Positions 11,801-60,437 of a DNA stretch of 64,000 nucleotides are shown piece after piece (within the stretch, counting starts at the first letter, position 1; every line of letters begins with the position of its first letter). Where the stretch lies: positions 186,001 to 250,000 of the forward strand of contig CAIRYK010000042.1 in assembly GCA_903882805.1 (NCBI GenBank), read 5' to 3'. Made by a program: the position numbers and the translations under genes. Under the pieces are notes generated by a model. That model made no database searches, was not told the DNA's origin, and saw nothing but the letters and a program-made list of their open reading frames with translations. The stretch comes from an uncultured Bacteroidota bacterium (GTDB taxonomy: Bacteria > Bacteroidota > Bacteroidia > Chitinophagales > Chitinophagaceae).

Positions 11801-11953
11801 TTAATACCTATACCTCTTGCTGGGTTTATATGCCTTCATCAAGTCGCCCTGACAACCGCATTTTTTACTTGAGTCGCACCCCTGTAACAATGCTCCGGCC
11901 ATTACTGCCAATACCATACTAAAAACGATCTTAACTAACTTTGTCCGTTGCAT
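11801..11953 (-). CDS. 50-residue lipoprotein, Cys/Lys/Tyr-rich
   Basis: ATG at 11951-11953, stop TAA at 11801-11803, 51 codons. The N-terminus is basic (MQRTK) and followed by a hydrophobic stretch ending in LLQGC, a lipobox-like site with Cys26. The mature part is only 25 residues: DSSKKCGCQGDLM, then a basic aromatic tail KPSKRYRY. Tiny lipoproteins with an SSKKCGC-like start are common in Bacteroidota, and their function is unknown to me. The gene is divergent from the downstream glycosyltransferase, and the promoter of that gene overlaps its 5' end, so the two may be jointly regulated. Confidence 0.7.
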   Translation of the reverse strand: MQRTKLVKIVFSMVLAVMAGALLQGCDSSKKCGCQGDLMKAYKPSKRYRY

Positions 11954-43098: not shown

Positions 43099-43950
43099 CT
43101 AATCTTCAATCACGCAAACACCAGCACAAACACTGCCCCCACCACCTTCAGGGCAGATGACCTCAATACTTCCGCCATGCAGCCGCATAATCTGTTTAGA
43201 TAGGCTTAGGCCAATGCCTGATCCGGCGTTCTTGGTAGTAAAAAAGGGGATGAATATTTTGTCAATGACTGTTTTGTCTATGCCCGTGCCATTGTCGGCT
43301 ACATATATCAGGGTTTTGTGGTTGTATTGCTCAGCAATTAGTTCTATAGAAGGATTAGTGCAACCGGCAAGGGCATCTGCGGCGTTATTGATGAGGTTGA
43401 GCAGCACCTGCTCTATCAAATCCGGGTCGAGATGGACACTTAAAGACTCATTTTTTACAGTTAATTGGAGGTGTATCCCTTTTTCTTTCAAACGTTCTTG
43501 CTGCAGCAGACACACCCTTTCTAAAAGGCTTTTGATGTTTACTGTCTTGAAATCTGCGACAGGCAAGGTTATGAGACTTTTGTATTGGTTCACAAAATTC
43601 ATCAAGCCAAGGCTTCTGTTCTCTATCACATTTAGCCCTTGCTGCATATCGTTTCTGGTTTCGTTGTCCATGTGGCCAATAGCGGACAGGTGTTGCATTT
43701 TCTTTTTTAGCGTGCCGGAAAGTGAAGAAATAGGTGTTAAGGAATTCATTATTTCGTGGGTAAGCACATGCAGTAATTGTTCCCAGGCTTGTAGCTCAGT
43801 ATGTTCCAGTTCGGCTTTTATGTTTTGAATGGAGATCAGTCTGTGTTCTTTGCCCTGGAGCCCAAATGTGGTGGCGCGCGCCATCAACTTAAGTTTGTCG
43901 CCCTTTATTACCGTCTCAAAAACGGGGCTGTTGCCAGGCTGCAAGGTGGT
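43099..43950 (-). pseudogene. Sensor histidine kinase, N-terminus missing
   Basis: The C-terminal ~278 residues of a NtrY/efflux-associated type kinase are clear: LMARATTFGLQGKEHRLISIQNIKAELE before the HisKA box LTHEIMNSLTPISSLSG (the phospho-acceptor His), then an N box NLINNAADAL, G1 DNGTGIDK and G2 GSGIGLSLSKQIM. Homologous kinases are about 430 residues with a membrane-anchored sensor part; that part is absent, and the frame continues into sequence antisense to the HlyD fragment. The 5' ends of both genes meet at 43.93-43.98 kb. Without a start codon and sensor it is probably non-functional. Usually this kinase pairs with a sigma-54 regulator and an efflux system; that regulator is missing here. 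Confidence 0.82.
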
Positions 43951-43965
43951 GCTGCAAAGCGATAT

Positions 43966-44751
43966 GGAGGAAACAAAGAATTGCGCAAGACAGGGGCCAT
44001 ATCTGAAAACGAATATGCCGACAGCAAGCGGGAACACGACTACCTTCAAAACCAAAAGCGCGTGGCCATAAATGCCTACAACATAGATTCGGCCTACATA
44101 GCGGCACAAATGCTAACACTGAACAAGAGCATTCAGCGCATGGACAACAACCTATCGGTTATCCATAAAATACTGGACCAGCTCTACGTGGTTGCCCCCA
44201 TAGGTGGCCAGCTATCGAGCCTTGATGCAACGGTGGGGCAACTGAAAAAACCCGGCGACAAACTGGGGCAAATAGATGTGATGGACTACTATAAAATAAT
44301 AGTAAAAATGGACGAACGTTATGTTTCGAAAGTTTTTGCAGGACAAGAGGCCGTAATGGACTATATGGGCAAAAACTATGCACTGAAGGTATCGAGGATA
44401 TTGCCGGAGGTAAAGGACGGGACATTTTTTATATATCTACTCTTTGATGGCGCTGTGCCCGACGGCATAAAGCGTGGACAAAACATACCGGTGAAGTTTA
44501 AGTTTGGCGGTGTTACAAAAGCCATTATGGTGAGCCGGGGTGCATTTTATCAATCAACGGGTGGCAACTGGGCCTATGTGCTGGACGGCGATAAAGCCAC
44601 TAAGCGCAATATAAAAATAGGCCGCCAAAATGTGGACACCTACGAGGTACTTGAGGGCCTTGAAGAGGGCGAAACCATCATCACATCTACCTACAAAGCA
44701 TATAACGACAAAGACCAATTGATATTGAACAACAAAAAACTGGAACAATGA
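43966..44751 (+). pseudogene. HlyD/RND-type periplasmic adaptor, N-terminus missing
   Basis: About 260 C-terminal residues of an adaptor that normally has about 415. It starts within the hairpin region (NKELRKTGAISENEYADSKREHD) and continues with the barrel and membrane-proximal parts (VVAPIGGQLSSLDATVGQLKKPGDKLGQIDV, FYQSTGGNWAYVLDGDKATKRNIKIGRQNVDTYEVLEGLEEGETIITSTY). The signal anchor and the first half of the lipoyl-like domain are lost; the apparent upstream start at 43801 lies antisense to the kinase fragment and is not credible. The stop overlaps the ATPase start (ATGA). The transport system would lack a normal adaptor unless another gene supplies it. Confidence 0.82.
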
Positions 44752-54993: not shown

Positions 54994-56901
54994 ATGCCCG
55001 GAAAAATCAGCAATATTATCAACCTCATTACTAATATGGGGGGGCGCTACGTAGGCTTCAGAGCAACTCACGAAGTGATGAGGCGTACAGGTATGCTGAA
55101 ACGGAAATTCCCGACAAACCCACCCTACCAACAATATTTAACCCTTGCCGACTGGAAACGCACCCCTGCAAAATTTTTTTTCACCAATCGCGAATCGCTC
55201 GATTTTGAACGACGTCCTTCACAAGACCTTAAAACGAGGTTCGAGGATTATAAAGCGGGCAAATTCCTGCTCTTTAATAGCATTAGCGCCAACCTTGGCG
55301 CCGATTACGACTGGATAACCAATCCCGATACACAATATAAATACGACATTAGCAAACACTGGACCGAAATACCAGATATGTCGAAAGAAGCGGGCGACAT
55401 CAAGTATGTATGGGAAAAATCGCGCTTTTCGTATCTACACGATATTATCAGATACGATTACCACTTCCGGCAAGATTGCGCCTCGCTGGTATTTGCCGAT
55501 ATTCTATCCTGGATAAAGGCTAACCCGGTAAATTGCGGACCAAACTACCGCTGTAGTCAGGAAATGTCGTTGCGCACGCTCAACTGGCTGTTTGCGCTGC
55601 ACTACTACCGCAACTCACCTTTGCTTACCGACGAGGTTTTCAACCAGATGCAATATGCCCTTTACTGGCACTTGCATCATGTATACAATAATATCAACTT
55701 TTCGCGCATAGCGGTGCGCAACAACCACGCCATTAGCGAAACCCTTACGCTTTACCTTGGAGGGTTGTTTTTCCCTACCCTACCGGGCGCAGCAACCTGG
55801 AAACAAAAAGGCAAACAATGGTTTGAAGAAGAAATTGCCTACCAGATATACAACGATGGTACGTTTCTGCAATATTCCATGAATTATCACCGTATTGTAG
55901 TGCAGCTGCTCACCTGGGGCATAACGCTATCTGAGAAAAACGGAGAGCGCTTTTCTGGCGCAGTTTACGACCGCGCAGGCAAATCGGTGCAATTTTTACG
56001 CACTTGCATGATAGACGAAAACGGATGGCTGCCTAACTATGGAGCTAACGACGGGGCTCTGTTTTTTAAACTAAGCGATGGCCATTACCGCGACTATAGA
56101 CCGCAGCTGCAAGCCCTTGCCGCAGCGCTGGGCATGAACGCCGGCATGCCAACCGATATGGAAGATGCACGCTGGTATGGCCTGCCTCCTGTAATAAATA
56201 ATGGCTGGCTGCCGCAAAATGGCGCGCACACCTTCGCCAAGGGCGGTTATTATGTGGTGCGCGAGCCCCATACGCTAACATTTATTAAGTGCGGCACCTA
56301 CCGAGATCGCCCGCAACATGCCGACGGCCTGCACCTGGATGTATGGTATAAAGGCGAAAACCTGCTGGTGGATGCCGGAAGTTATAAATATAATACTGAT
56401 GATGCTACGGTTCGCTATTTCAGCGGTACAGCGTCGCACAATACTGTGATGTTGGGCAACCACGACCAAATGCTGAAAGGCGGCCGGTTTATCTGGTATT
56501 ACTGGACCGAATGCCTGCTGCCAGCCGTTACAGAAAACAAAGACAACTTTACTTTTAGCGGAAGCATATTAGCCTTCAAACATATCAAGAACGGCATAGA
56601 GCATAAAAGAACGGTAATAAAACACAAAGGCTTACCTATATGGGAAATTACCGACCAAATTATTAACAAGCCCGATCAACTGCCTATGCGCCAGTTATGG
56701 CATCTGCCGCCCGATGAAGTAAATGCAATAACATTTGCTGCCACTACCAACACCGCGCCGCTACAGCCTGAGAAAAACGAAGGATGGCGATCGCAACTTT
56801 ATGGGTTTAAAGAAAAAACTACTGAATACTGCTTTACCACCGACGGCAACAACATAACAACCACCATAAGCATAGCAGCCGAAACAATAGCGGTGAATTA
56901 A
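54994..56901 (+). CDS. Heparinase II/III-like (alginate lyase-like) protein
   Basis: 635 residues. The N-terminal alpha/alpha toroid (about 40-380) contains YRCSQEMSLRTLNWLFALHYY and INFSRIAVRNNHAISETLTLYLGG; the C-terminal Heparinase_II_III beta-sandwich holds RPQHADGLHLDVWYKGENLLVDAGSYKYN and SGTASHNTVMLGNHDQ, with the conserved His residues. Such proteins beta-eliminate uronic acid-containing polysaccharides, and in glycan loci they are often linked to bi-domain oxidoreductases, as here. There is no obvious signal peptide, so location is uncertain. Its gene precedes a short lipoprotein gene and lies upstream of the divergent NDH-2/sigma pair. Confidence 0.9.
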   Translation: MPGKISNIINLITNMGGRYVGFRATHEVMRRTGMLKRKFPTNPPYQQYLTLADWKRTPAKFFFTNRESLDFERRPSQDLKTRFEDYKAGKFLLFNSISANLGADYDWITNPDTQYKYDISKHWTEIPDMSKEAGDIKYVWEKSRFSYLHDIIRYDYHFRQDCASLVFADILSWIKANPVNCGPNYRCSQEMSLRTLNWLFALHYYRNSPLLTDEVFNQMQYALYWHLHHVYNNINFSRIAVRNNHAISETLTLYLGGLFFPTLPGAATWKQKGKQWFEEEIAYQIYNDGTFLQYSMNYHRIVVQLLTWGITLSEKNGERFSGAVYDRAGKSVQFLRTCMIDENGWLPNYGANDGALFFKLSDGHYRDYRPQLQALAAALGMNAGMPTDMEDARWYGLPPVINNGWLPQNGAHTFAKGGYYVVREPHTLTFIKCGTYRDRPQHADGLHLDVWYKGENLLVDAGSYKYNTDDATVRYFSGTASHNTVMLGNHDQMLKGGRFIWYYWTECLLPAVTENKDNFTFSGSILAFKHIKNGIEHKRTVIKHKGLPIWEITDQIINKPDQLPMRQLWHLPPDEVNAITFAATTNTAPLQPEKNEGWRSQLYGFKEKTTEYCFTTDGNNITTTISIAAETIAVN

Positions 56902-56926
56902 AATAGAATAATATTCAATTGGGGTT

Positions 56927-56934
56927 TATCTTTG
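56927..56934 (+). promoter_or_regulatory. -7 promoter element before the small lipoprotein gene
   Basis: TATCTTTG matches TAnnTTTG exactly, 18 bases before ATG 56952. It argues for starting the gene at 56952 and not at 56919. Confidence 0.5.
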
Positions 56935-56951
56935 CCCCACTTCTTAGAAAC

Positions 56952-57455
56952 ATGAAAGCAAAACTGAAACTACTTACCATATTTGTACTGATCGCATTTT
57001 GGATAACATCGTGCGCACCCAAGTACCATGCCGATGACCACAGAGGGTACTACCCCGATGGCGACTACAAAGAGCACCACTACCTCAACAAAAAGACAGA
57101 ATTCAACCCTAAAAAAGAAGACCCTTCCAAGCTGAAAGGCAATAACACCAATAAAAAGAAAGAAGCCAAACAAAAAAATAAAGCACGCAAAGAAAAGCAA
57201 GCTGCCGAAAAAGAACAACGCGCTGCGGCAAAAGAAGCTGCCGCAAAAGCCAAGGCAGATAGAAAAGCAGCGGAACAAGAACTTGCCGATAAAATAAAAG
57301 CGGAAAAGGAACAAGATAAAGCCAAGGACGAACCCAAAAAAGAAGAAACGCCAAGCGCTGAACCTAAACCAACCGAAGAACCTAAAAAGGAGGAACCTAA
57401 GCCAGCCGAGGAACCCAAAAAGGAAGAGCCGAAGCCGGAGGAGCCGCAGAAGTAA
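56952..57455 (+). CDS. Lysine/glutamate/proline-rich lipoprotein
   Basis: 167 residues from ATG 56952. A lipoprotein signal ends WITSC (Cys20); the mature N-terminus has many His/Tyr residues (APKYHADDHRGYYPDGDYKEHHYL). Then comes a highly charged Lys/Glu/Ala helix (about 60-130, KKKEAKQKNKARKEKQAAEKE and repeats) and a C-terminal Pro-rich tail with near-repeats EEPKKEEPKPAEEPKKEEPKPEEPQ-like. It resembles small cell-envelope proteins that span the periplasm or link to the cell wall, but I assign no function. Repetitive composition makes paralog comparison unreliable. Confidence 0.75.
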   Translation: MKAKLKLLTIFVLIAFWITSCAPKYHADDHRGYYPDGDYKEHHYLNKKTEFNPKKEDPSKLKGNNTNKKKEAKQKNKARKEKQAAEKEQRAAAKEAAAKAKADRKAAEQELADKIKAEKEQDKAKDEPKKEETPSAEPKPTEEPKKEEPKPAEEPKKEEPKPEEPQK

Positions 57456-57583
57456 CCATCGATTTTAATACCGTATTTGTATAATATAGCGAGACGGCAA
57501 CACTTACCCCAACAAATAAAATCTCTAATTTGGCAACGGTTGTGCCATCCCGCTATAAACTGCAATAGATTAATCACATGTTG

Positions 57584-58948
57584 CTAAAGCCCATGTATAT
57601 CTAATGATGTTGAATGAAGGCATCTTCTTGAATGCTGATCAATTTCAGCTGTTTTTTGCACAAAAGGTCTTATGATCAATCTGTTTCCTTTTTCGTAGGT
57701 AAGAAAACTCCAGCACCAGTTGGCCAGTACCACCAATTTATTTCTAAACCCAACCAGGTAGCTGATATGAATGAGCAGCCACATTAGCCACGCCATCCTT
57801 CCTTTTAGTTTTAGCCCTACCGGAAATTCAGCAACTGCTTTTTTTCTGCCAATAGTAGCCATCGCTCCCTTATCCAGATACTTAAAAACCTTAGGGCGCA
57901 ACCCGCCGTGTATCTGCTGTATAGCCATACCCAAGTAAGCGCCCATTTGCATGGCCGGCTGCGCAACGCCGGGCAGGCCAGCCGGATATTTACTTGTTTT
58001 GAAGGAGGCAATGTCGCCGATAGCGAAAATATTTGTGAAGCCGCGTACCATACAATATTCATTCACTACAAGTTTTCCTTTTTCTACACAGGCTGCAGGC
58101 ATTCCTTCCGGCATATTCCCTTTTACCCCTGCCGACCATATTACTGTACTACTGTCTATCGTTTCACCATTACTCAGTATCAGCGTCTTACCATCATAAT
58201 GTTGGGCTTTTGCATTTGTCAGCACTTTTACGCCCATACTCAACAGGTCGTTGCCAGCTACTACCCCTGCGGTTGGAGACATAGCTGGTAACAGGCACTC
58301 GCCACCCTCAAGCAAGTAAATGTTCATATCTGCCATATTGAGCGTAGGGAAATCCTTTGTTAGCACATGCTTTCTCAGTTCTGCTATTGCGCCAGCCATT
58401 TCCACGCCTGTAGGTCCACCACCAATTATTACAATTGTCAGTAATTTTTTCTGCTCCTCTTTATCTACAGTCAGGCTGGCCTGTTCCAATGTCTGAATCA
58501 ACTGACTTCTTACATTTAGTGCGTCGGGAATGGTTTTTAGTGGTAAGGCATATTTTTCCATACCCGAATTGCCAAAATAATTGGTCTTAGACCCGGTTGC
58601 AATGATAAGGTAGTCGAAAAAAACCGTTCCAACAGGCGTAACAATCTGCATCGACTGCGCATCAATGCGCGTTACTTCCAGCATCCTATAATGAAAATCT
58701 TCAGCTTCCCACATTTCTTTGCGCAACGGACTGGCAATAGCATCGGGTTGCAGTCCCGCGGTAGCCACCTGATACAATAGGGGATGAAATGTATTGTAAT
58801 TTTGCTTGTCGAACACCACCACCTGAAAACCCTTACCCCGCAAATTGTTGATGGCAGCAAGTCCGCCAAAACCTCCGCCTATAATTACTACCCTTGGTTT
58901 TCCTGTTTCTGGAATGTTTACTGATGTGCTGGAAACGCAATCTGTCAT
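57584..58948 (-). CDS. ndh: Type II NADH dehydrogenase (NDH-2-like) / FAD-dependent oxidoreductase
   Basis: 454 residues from ATG 58948. FAD-binding GxGxxG-type motif VVIIGGGFGGLAA at the N-terminus, NAD-binding TIVIIGGGPTGVEMAGAIAEL in the middle, and the FAD-contacting NIFAIGDIASF. The C-terminal MAWLMWLLIHISYLVGF stretch fits the membrane-anchoring end of NDH-2. It would oxidise NADH and reduce quinone without pumping protons. A frame start at 58996 is possible, but it overlaps the likely promoter and the family's start is near the FAD motif, so ATG 58948 is chosen. It is divergent from the ECF41-type sigma gene, and an ECF41-like promoter lies directly upstream. Confidence 0.9.
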   Translation of the reverse strand: MTDCVSSTSVNIPETGKPRVVIIGGGFGGLAAINNLRGKGFQVVVFDKQNYNTFHPLLYQVATAGLQPDAIASPLRKEMWEAEDFHYRMLEVTRIDAQSMQIVTPVGTVFFDYLIIATGSKTNYFGNSGMEKYALPLKTIPDALNVRSQLIQTLEQASLTVDKEEQKKLLTIVIIGGGPTGVEMAGAIAELRKHVLTKDFPTLNMADMNIYLLEGGECLLPAMSPTAGVVAGNDLLSMGVKVLTNAKAQHYDGKTLILSNGETIDSSTVIWSAGVKGNMPEGMPAACVEKGKLVVNEYCMVRGFTNIFAIGDIASFKTSKYPAGLPGVAQPAMQMGAYLGMAIQQIHGGLRPKVFKYLDKGAMATIGRKKAVAEFPVGLKLKGRMAWLMWLLIHISYLVGFRNKLVVLANWCWSFLTYEKGNRLIIRPFVQKTAEIDQHSRRCLHSTSLDIHGL

Positions 58949-58996
58949 AACTTTAGTTTTTAAATCAACTCCGGTTATTTTATCCGGTATATACAA

Positions 58997-59023
58997 GACT
59001 AATGAAGCCGTATTTTTGTGACA
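58997..59023 (-). promoter_or_regulatory. ECF41-type sigma promoter driving the NDH-2 gene
   Basis: On the minus strand TGTCACA (59023-59017), a 16-base spacer and AGTC (59000-58997). The consensus reported for ECF41 sigma factors is TGTCACA-N16-CGTC, so the -35 and the spacer match exactly and the -10 by three of four bases. It points into the NDH-2 gene and leaves a leader of about 40 bases before ATG 58948. Confidence 0.65.
59011..59018 (+). promoter_or_regulatory. -7 promoter element of the ECF41-type sigma gene
   Basis: TATTTTTG matches TAnnTTTG exactly, 27 bases before ATG 59046. It overlaps the -35 element of the ECF41 promoter on the opposite strand, so the two promoters would compete. 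Confidence 0.55.
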
Positions 59024-59045
59024 CTATATCGAAATATTTTTTTTG

Positions 59046-59890
59046 ATGGACATTTACACCAACAATAGCGACATATTGGGCGACTACCGGCCACAACTTT
59101 TGCAACTGCTTACAAGATGACGCAAAGCATGGCAGAGGCCGAGGACATATTACAGGATGCACAACTGGCACTACTGGCGGTGAATGCAGCCTCAATTTCG
59201 TCACCGCGAGCTTACCTTATGCGCACGGTTGTCAATAAAAGTATAAATAGCATCAATAAGCGGAAACTGATCAACTATCCGGGCATAGATCTCCCCGAAC
59301 CGCTCACTGAGCACAAGTGCGCTTCAATATCCCAGTACGATGTAACTTATGGTTTGCTACTATTGTTGCAGCGTCTTAATCCACAGGAACGAGCCGTTTT
59401 TATACTAAGAGAGAGTTTTGACTACGAATACGCAGAAATCGCAGAAATATTGGATATTACAACCGACAATTGCCGGCAAATTTATCATAGATCGAAAGAA
59501 CGTGTTGGCAAAAAGACATCAAGATTCAATACCTCTGCTGCCGAAAACCGGGCATTTTCTGAGGCATTTATGAAAGCTGCTTCGGGCGAACTGTCTGAAT
59601 TCGTGAAGATGTTGAAAAAAGACATGATCATATACTCCGATGGTGGCGGTAAAGTGTCGGCCGCTATACATCCTATTATTGGCTTAGAAAATTGTCTTAA
59701 ATTCCTGCAAGGCCTGAATGCTAAGCGCGGCAACGACCTCTACTCAACCTCTACTTCATTAAATGGGCAACCGGCAATGGTGTTTTATCTTAAAGAAACC
59801 AATGCTGTAGATACTATAGTATTGCTCGAAAATGAGGAAAACTCTATATCGGCCATGTATGTGGTTCGCAATCCCGATAAGTTCTTTTAG
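59046..59890 (+). pseudogene. ECF41-type RNA polymerase sigma factor with a one-base frameshift
   Basis: Translation from ATG 59046 gives MDIYTNNSDILGDYRPQLLQ and then a stop at 59118-59120; the correct frame resumes at about 59108 with Y-K-M-T-Q-S-M-A-E-A-E-D-I-L. Adding one G in CTGCT near 59108 restores an uninterrupted product of about 281 residues: region 2 (AEDILQDAQ), region 4 helix (LNPQERAVFILRESFDYEYAEIAEIL) and a fused C-terminal SnoaL-like domain. The ECF41 landmarks are all present: LPEPL (for WLPEPL), DGGGK and NPDKF. The start at ATG 59117 would lose region 2.1. It may be a true mutation, a sequencing error or programmed frameshifting. It is divergent from NDH-2, a likely target. 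Confidence 0.85.
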
Positions 59891-60183
59891 CCCATATTTA
59901 TTACCCCAAACGTTTATTTTTTAATCGTACGAGCCATTTTTTACAAGAACCCTTACTCGAAGGCTGCACTTTACGCGATGGTAGGAAACAATACTCGCGC
60001 AAGACAGGTAATTTTTCATATTTTTTGTCGTTTACTCTCTGGATAAGAGGCCGACTTCTGGTCGACCAAAGATCGGAGTCGACAGTCATCAGGTTCGCGG
60101 ATGGTTGGGGATTGTCTGAACAACTTATTAAGCTGTTTTTTTGTTTAGCTGCTAGGTTTCGGTGGGTATATTAAATGCCGATA

Positions 60184-60250
60184 TGCCCCGTTAGTGGGCA
60201 ACCCTGTTTGTAGAAAAACATCGTAAATTACGGTTATGCCCTTATGGGGC
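60184..60250. repeat. Dispersed two-hairpin element, copy B
   Basis: Hairpin 1 (TGCCC...GGGCA, 60184-60200) with a CGTTAG-containing loop, six bases, TTTGTAG (60207-60213), 23 bases, then hairpin 2 (GCCCttatGGGGC-like, 60237-60250). Order and spacings match copy A at 23609-23677, although the stems differ in sequence. Confidence 0.7.
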
Positions 60251-60286
60251 TATCCGGTTTGCGAATACGATAGCCCCTGGGGCATA
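60235..60286. repeat. Nested inverted repeat (each arm is itself a hairpin)
   Basis: The arm at 60235-60254 (TATGCCC..GGGGCTATC) is inverted at 60269-60286 (GATAGCCCC..GGGCATA) across 14 bases. Each arm can also fold on itself, so a cruciform or alternative RNA folds are possible. Confidence 0.65.
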
Positions 60287-60300
60287 GTATCTAACCTCCT

Positions 60301-60332
60301 CGAAGAGTCTCTGCCCTTAGCAGGACTCTTCG
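60301..60332. repeat. Strong 32-base hairpin
   Basis: CGAAGAGTC and CTGC pair with GCAG and GACTCTTCG (60301-60314 with 60320-60332), one bulged T and a CCTTA loop. No T run follows on the plus strand, so it is not a plain terminator; it resembles dispersed hairpin repeats. Confidence 0.65.
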
Positions 60333-60421
60333 ATACTCGCGCCGGGTGGTGCATGGTCGGAACCTTAACTCAGCCCCACCCCTTCACAAAAACATTATCT
60401 ACCACAACAACCGCTAATTAC

Positions 60422-60429
60422 TATTTTTG
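60422..60429 (+). promoter_or_regulatory. -7 promoter element of the GT4 gene
   Basis: TATTTTTG matches TAnnTTTG exactly and ends 8 bases before ATG 60438, implying a very short leader. Confidence 0.55.
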
Positions 60430-60437
60430 CGGTCGCA

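Follow-up and report, generated by a model that had tools for sequence, protein, structure and literature searches.

In the accessible parts of PMC3426412, ECF41 sigma factors are distinguished by a WLPEP linker motif, by target promoters of the form TGTCACA ... GTC or GTT, and by a neighboring gene encoding a carboxymuconolactone decarboxylase, an oxidoreductase or an epimerase. The oxidoreductase class found beside ECF41 genes includes the Pyr_redox_2 domain, and a divergent ECF41-oxidoreductase pair is reported there for 15% of cases (Table 4 of that paper). The window analyzed here, a stretch of 64,000 nucleotides, contains a sigma factor gene which shares with the ECF41 proteins of B. licheniformis and R. 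sphaeroides region 2, the LPEP linker, region 4 and a C-terminal extension of approximately 100 aa. Known ECF41 loci and this one also have in common a divergent Pyr_redox_2 oxidoreductase gene behind a TGTCACA-type promoter. The window gene differs from them in that its frame is broken near the start, the W of WLPEP is replaced while LPEPL is kept, and the partner is NDH-2-like. The layout of the locus is that of a standard ECF41 system, with its regulator broken.

The first-pass annotation had described a complete region 2, a region 4 and a SnoaL-like tail in the restored frame. The two sigma regions were recovered in the 3' piece of the gene (Table 1) as Pfam matches to Sigma70_r2 (25.2 bits, from profile position 17 on) and Sigma70_r4_2 (46 bits). 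The SnoaL-like tail was recovered only indirectly: the C-terminal 116 aa alone gave no Pfam family match even at E<=1, and this part is covered by alignment to SigJ only. The SigX4 model (TIGR02957), a related model and not the definition of ECF41, aligned along the 257-aa piece with 223 bits, below its NCBIfam cut-off of 323.25 (a score taken for the window gene of the clade), and the SigJ model did so with 212.1 bits against a curated cut-off of 271. The solved SigJ chain 5xe7, which we take to be that of Mycobacterium tuberculosis, was aligned with the 257-aa piece over chain residues 27 to 297, including the end of the C-terminal extension; the piece has no counterpart of about the first 26 chain residues. 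LPEPL, DGGGK and NPDKF, also named in the first-pass annotation, were all found in the -1 frame, and the latter two are presumably conserved motifs of the ECF41 C-terminal extension. Neither is spelled out in the accessible text of PMC3426412 (0 occurrences). Domains, C-terminal extension, promoter and neighboring gene all fit the original assignment: the gene is of the ECF41 type, whose sigma factors carry a fused C-terminal extension. One continuous frame including the first region-2 helix is absent, so that as assembled it is an interrupted ECF41 gene and not a working member.

Reading frames and site of the break

Frame 0 starts at ATG 59046 (+) and runs for 24 sense codons to TGA 59118-59120. 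In the -1 frame, a single uninterrupted open stretch extends from 59069 to a stop codon whose last base is 59890; no ATG, GTG or TTG start occurs in it before 59117. The internal ATG 59117, from which a 257-codon ORF (+) proceeds in the -1 frame relative to 59046, overlaps TGA 59118 (ATGA). The early stop and the otherwise unbroken remainder of the gene were read directly in the sequence, as first described.

Table 1. Features of the locus, and other likely frame breaks found in the same assembly. Positions are those of the window unless another stretch is named.
Feature	Position	Strand	Basis or detail
Accessory segment between heparinase-like gene and glycosyltransferase gene	56902..60437		Comparison with six relatives
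Extra NDH-2-like FAD/NAD(P) oxidoreductase, 454 aa, intact, ATG 58948	57584..58948	-	Pyr_redox_2 + NDH2_C
Predicted ECF41-type promoter, TGTCACA-N16-AGTC, ending 48 nt before ATG 58948	58997..59023	-	Motif from the accessible parts of PMC3426412
5' piece: start codon, 24 codons, TGA; ECF sigma factor N-terminus	59046..59120	+	Frames, profile scores, composition
Frame change to -1; interval holds four-T run 59098-59101	59098..59110	+	Profile scores by switch point
3' piece, 257 codons: rest of region 2, LPEPL linker, region 4, C-terminal extension	59117..59890	+	
Histidine kinase ORF, last residues look out of frame	43099-44112	-	G5 run 43140-43136
TPR-histidine kinase gene split into two ORFs	L106 11168-13206 (G000:C42, ~171.2-173.2 kb)		A8 run 11825-11832
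Mannosyltransferase-like membrane protein gene, apparently split	L108 1859-3438 (G000:C32, ~41.9-43.4 kb)	-	A5 run 2955-2951

The break was located by scoring read-throughs that change frame after codons 8 to 24 against a family profile made from 55 of 64 relatives, nine having been dropped with fewer than 21 residues before the position of the internal Met. The best score, 304.1 bits, was obtained with a switch after codon 18, at the T-run 59098-59101, compared to 301.9 and 301.5 bits after codons 19 and 20, respectively, and 303.0 bits after codon 21, the place near 59108 where the first-pass annotation had put a missing base. The 3' piece alone scored 280.8 bits, and very early switches, in which hardly any frame-0 sequence is used, scored approximately 293.8 bits. 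Approximately 13 bits of the gain by read-through came from the -1-frame residues just before ATG 59117 and approximately 10 bits from the frame-0 piece. Because the frame-0 residues raise the family-profile score, the 5' piece belongs to the sigma gene, and by analogy it would be the first helix of region 2. The composition of the 5' piece is coding-like in frame 0 alone (21 codons), and that of the 3' piece is coding-like at 0.13 nats per codon, which is the 5th-25th percentile of long ORFs. Since switches after codons 18-21 score alike, the break is placed within approximately 59098-59110. The frame change itself is present in the sequence; position 59108 is not singled out, and by these scores the T-run would fit at least as well as the break site. 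An imperfect 17-nt direct repeat (82%) was observed at 57824-57840 and 59095-59111, its second copy spanning the frame break; this is probably a chance occurrence.

Correction of the frame by slippage, which the first-pass annotation had offered beside loss of the regulator, was not supported. Both frames are coding, which would be in keeping with programmed -1 frameshifting or slippage yielding a full-length protein, but no X_XXY_YYZ slippery heptamer was seen at the site by eye, the 100 nt downstream have no stable fold (z 0.25, with 117 of 200 shuffles folding at least as well), and the break was found in 0 of 62 informative relatives. A four-T run is short for transcriptional slippage. This is the least probable of all the explanations considered.

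Relatives of the gene and frame breaks elsewhere in the assembly

A comparison with close relatives had been proposed at the outset. In the ECF41 search of 394 family genomes, 30 of the matches listed were taken up as loci, and 64 relatives in all were fetched from two collections. The break point was read in one frame in all 62 relatives whose DNA reaches it; the other two, L009 and L023, are cut by a contig end before it. No close relative was found: the best protein identity among the 394 family genomes was 44%, a class sample of 395 genomes gave no higher score (best other match 44% over 252 residues), the viral contigs searched yielded no relative, and segment 57500-60400 had no match in plasmids.

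In a maximum-likelihood tree of 66 rows, the 3' piece joined L067, L068, L069 and L071, ECF41 genes from the same bacterial family with 37-44% identity, in a clade with support 100/94. All four are intact, unlike the window gene. The end branches were 0.69 for the window protein, 0.61 for L067 and 0.96 for L068, with L069 and L071 on a longer stem of 1.41. Of 41 alignment columns with conservation in 85% or more of the other rows, the window protein departs at 7, compared to 5 for L067, 8 for L068, 9 for L069 and 8 for L071. Judged by these columns, the remaining 257 codons appear no more decayed than the intact sister genes, and the few departures argue against a long decay. The lack of decay beyond the intact sisters and the absence of the break from all 62 informative relatives agree with the initial view of a recent event or an error. 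In another family relative, an ECF41-like match (G102:C4:29045-29734) contains two internal stop codons and its first 26 residues are unmatched; it is possibly also a broken copy.

Re-initiation, weighed against inactivation, would have ribosomes terminate at TGA 59118, resume at ATG 59117 and produce a 257-aa sigma factor with altered activity. The ATGA overlap and the undecayed, coding-like 3' piece make this possible, but it is unlikely. ATG 59117 stands at the conserved Met position of the family (Met in 43 of 55 aligned relatives), and the overlap therefore follows from the break, requires no selection and is no evidence of coupling. Moreover, the part before the conserved Met is missing in none of the 62 informative relatives, and the one match without it, that in G102, also has internal stop codons.

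Frame breaks elsewhere were sought with a home-made coding HMM in 414,754 bases (the window and 20 stretches), 1,541 of them N. The HMM found 79 of 80 simulated one-base deletions in mid-gene and 19 of 80 when these lay 60 nt after the start, and it missed the sigma-factor break itself. From 91 frame-switch events, 41 entries that returned to the same frame and three that switched at a stop were removed; the remaining events were judged by rule and by eye from their junctions, and the counts are rough. Three other likely one-base breaks were obtained, each at a homopolymer of five to eight bases (Table 1). The TPR-kinase split is supported by Pfam, and in the mannosyltransferase-like gene a Pfam match was found in the first piece only. 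Beside the histidine kinase ORF, a usual-looking kinase ending was observed to be open in another frame at window 43113-43205. In same-genus controls counted by eye, there were none in 400 kb of G002, approximately two in 220 kb of G004 and approximately one in 180 kb of G012. Three breaks in 415 kb compared to approximately three in 800 kb is no clear excess, and one-base breaks are background in these assemblies, mutation or error alike. With three other likely breaks in the assembly, both a mutation and an assembly error would be quite ordinary.

An assembly or sequencing error would mean that the gene is intact in the organism, that the assembly miscounts the bases of a short run, and that the lesion may be absent from the cell. 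The three other likely frame changes, each at a run, the place of the T4 run among the best-fitting break points and the absence of other damage within the gene all speak for an error, but the rate of breaks is not clearly above that of the same-genus controls. Natural frameshift mutations likewise favor runs. We regard an error as a serious contender, at somewhat below even odds, and recent inactivation is slightly favored over it.

The divergent oxidoreductase and its predicted promoter

The NDH-2-like oxidoreductase was 25% identical to E. coli Ndh over 384 columns, and a second copy of such an enzyme is encoded on contig C69 of the genome. The pattern TGTCACA-N15-17-MGTC had three matches in the 4.94-Mb genome compared to 13 for a reversed control pattern; it is not enriched genome-wide, and the case for the promoter is its position. 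Of the three matches, 59023-58997 is the only one with an ORF of at least 80 aa starting at most 300 nt downstream on the same strand, and when the 97-bp intergenic stretch was shuffled 200,000 times by mononucleotides, such a match arose in 33 of the shuffles.

In other phyla, an exact TGTCACA-spacer-NGTC site was found in 24 of 35 ECF41 loci within the stretch examined per locus. Four of these loci (L007, L025, L027 and L031, all Chloroflexota) have a Pyr_redox-type neighbor beside the sigma gene, with 22-25% identity to the window enzyme, and the site lies at or within approximately 100 nt before the match to this distant oxidoreductase relative. They differ from the window locus in that the enzyme is distant, the gene order is not divergent and the sigma gene is intact. 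Among 29 loci of the family, the exact promoter form was present in one, L086, and 12 others had TGTCACGTT ... GTT or GTC, mostly before a carboxymuconolactone decarboxylase-like gene (named by eye). The nearest genes, L067 and L068, had no such promoter site, and no NDH-2-like match was found within the 1.5-kb flanks of L067, L068, L069 or L071.

Relatives of the NDH-2-like enzyme were found in 11 of 394 family genomes including this one, the ten others with 51-56% identity. At nine of these ten loci, the 1.0-1.5 kb flanks contained no ECF41 relative and no upstream TGTCA[C/T]-type site apart from a poor match in L142, at 0.3 kb. At the tenth, G435, an intact ECF41 gene is located on the same strand at a distance of approximately 4 kb, but the 8.5 kb around the ECF41 and NDH-2 genes contained no TGTCA[C/T]-type site. 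The NDH-2-like oxidoreductase of the window is likely to be the ECF41 target. No paper linking ECF41 to an NADH dehydrogenase was found in a literature of incomplete coverage, which hence is no proof of novelty, and a search for frameshifts in ECF sigma factors of Bacteroidetes gave none about ECF41 by title.

Both genes lie in an accessory segment (Table 1). When six same-genus genomes were compared at the glycosyltransferase gene (window 60438), the segment of approximately 3.5 kb was absent from the same place in all of them, and the lipoprotein-like ORF, the oxidoreductase and the sigma gene had no match there in 6/6. In five of the six, no more than approximately 100 nt separate the end of the heparinase-like gene (window 54994-56901) from the start of the glycosyltransferase gene. 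The sixth, G009 (L199 5633-9352), carries 3.7 kb of other DNA at this place, in which an acetyltransferase-like gene as well as two similar small lipoprotein-like ORFs were recognized by eye. Because the place is empty in five relatives and carries different cargo here and in G009, it appears to take varying accessory DNA and may be a variable insertion site. Around the segment, no notable flanking repeat was found, and no transposase was noticed on scanning the ORF list of the window. ECF41 relatives (E<=1e-20) were found in 1 of 35 genus genomes, namely this one.

A proposed recent inactivation of the regulator

An isolated, recent one-base frame change near the start of the ECF41 gene, disabling it, is the reading we prefer, with a probability of about 0.5. 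An intact ECF41 protein would switch on the divergent oxidoreductase from the promoter at 59023-58997. After a one-base change near the start of the sigma gene, possibly at a short homopolymer, translation from 59046 would cover 24 codons only. Initiation at ATG 59117 would leave out the first region-2 helix, so that the resulting 257-aa protein would probably not bind RNA polymerase properly, and the oxidoreductase would have been deprived of its dedicated activator. The frame of the oxidoreductase is intact, as it would be in a pair that still functions or after a very recent loss, and this counts against inactivation. We infer that the lesion is present in the living cell and inactivates the sigma factor.

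Taken together, these results favor an ordinary recent mutation or an error of assembly; a novel mechanism of protein production is not indicated, and neither re-initiation nor recoding is likely. It is very improbable that a reversible slip in the short run toggles an accessory respiratory switch formed by ECF41 and the extra NDH-2, or that a re-initiated, truncated sigma factor has a new activity.

In annotation, the entry for this gene should read frameshifted ECF41 sigma factor; beyond that, the break has little significance. An NDH-2-type enzyme as ECF41 target would, if true, be a new variant of a known oxidoreductase class and not a new class. The predicted regulon consists of one gene, the extra NDH-2-like enzyme behind an ECF41 promoter, and, tested with an intact regulator, it would link the ECF41 switch to quinone reduction.
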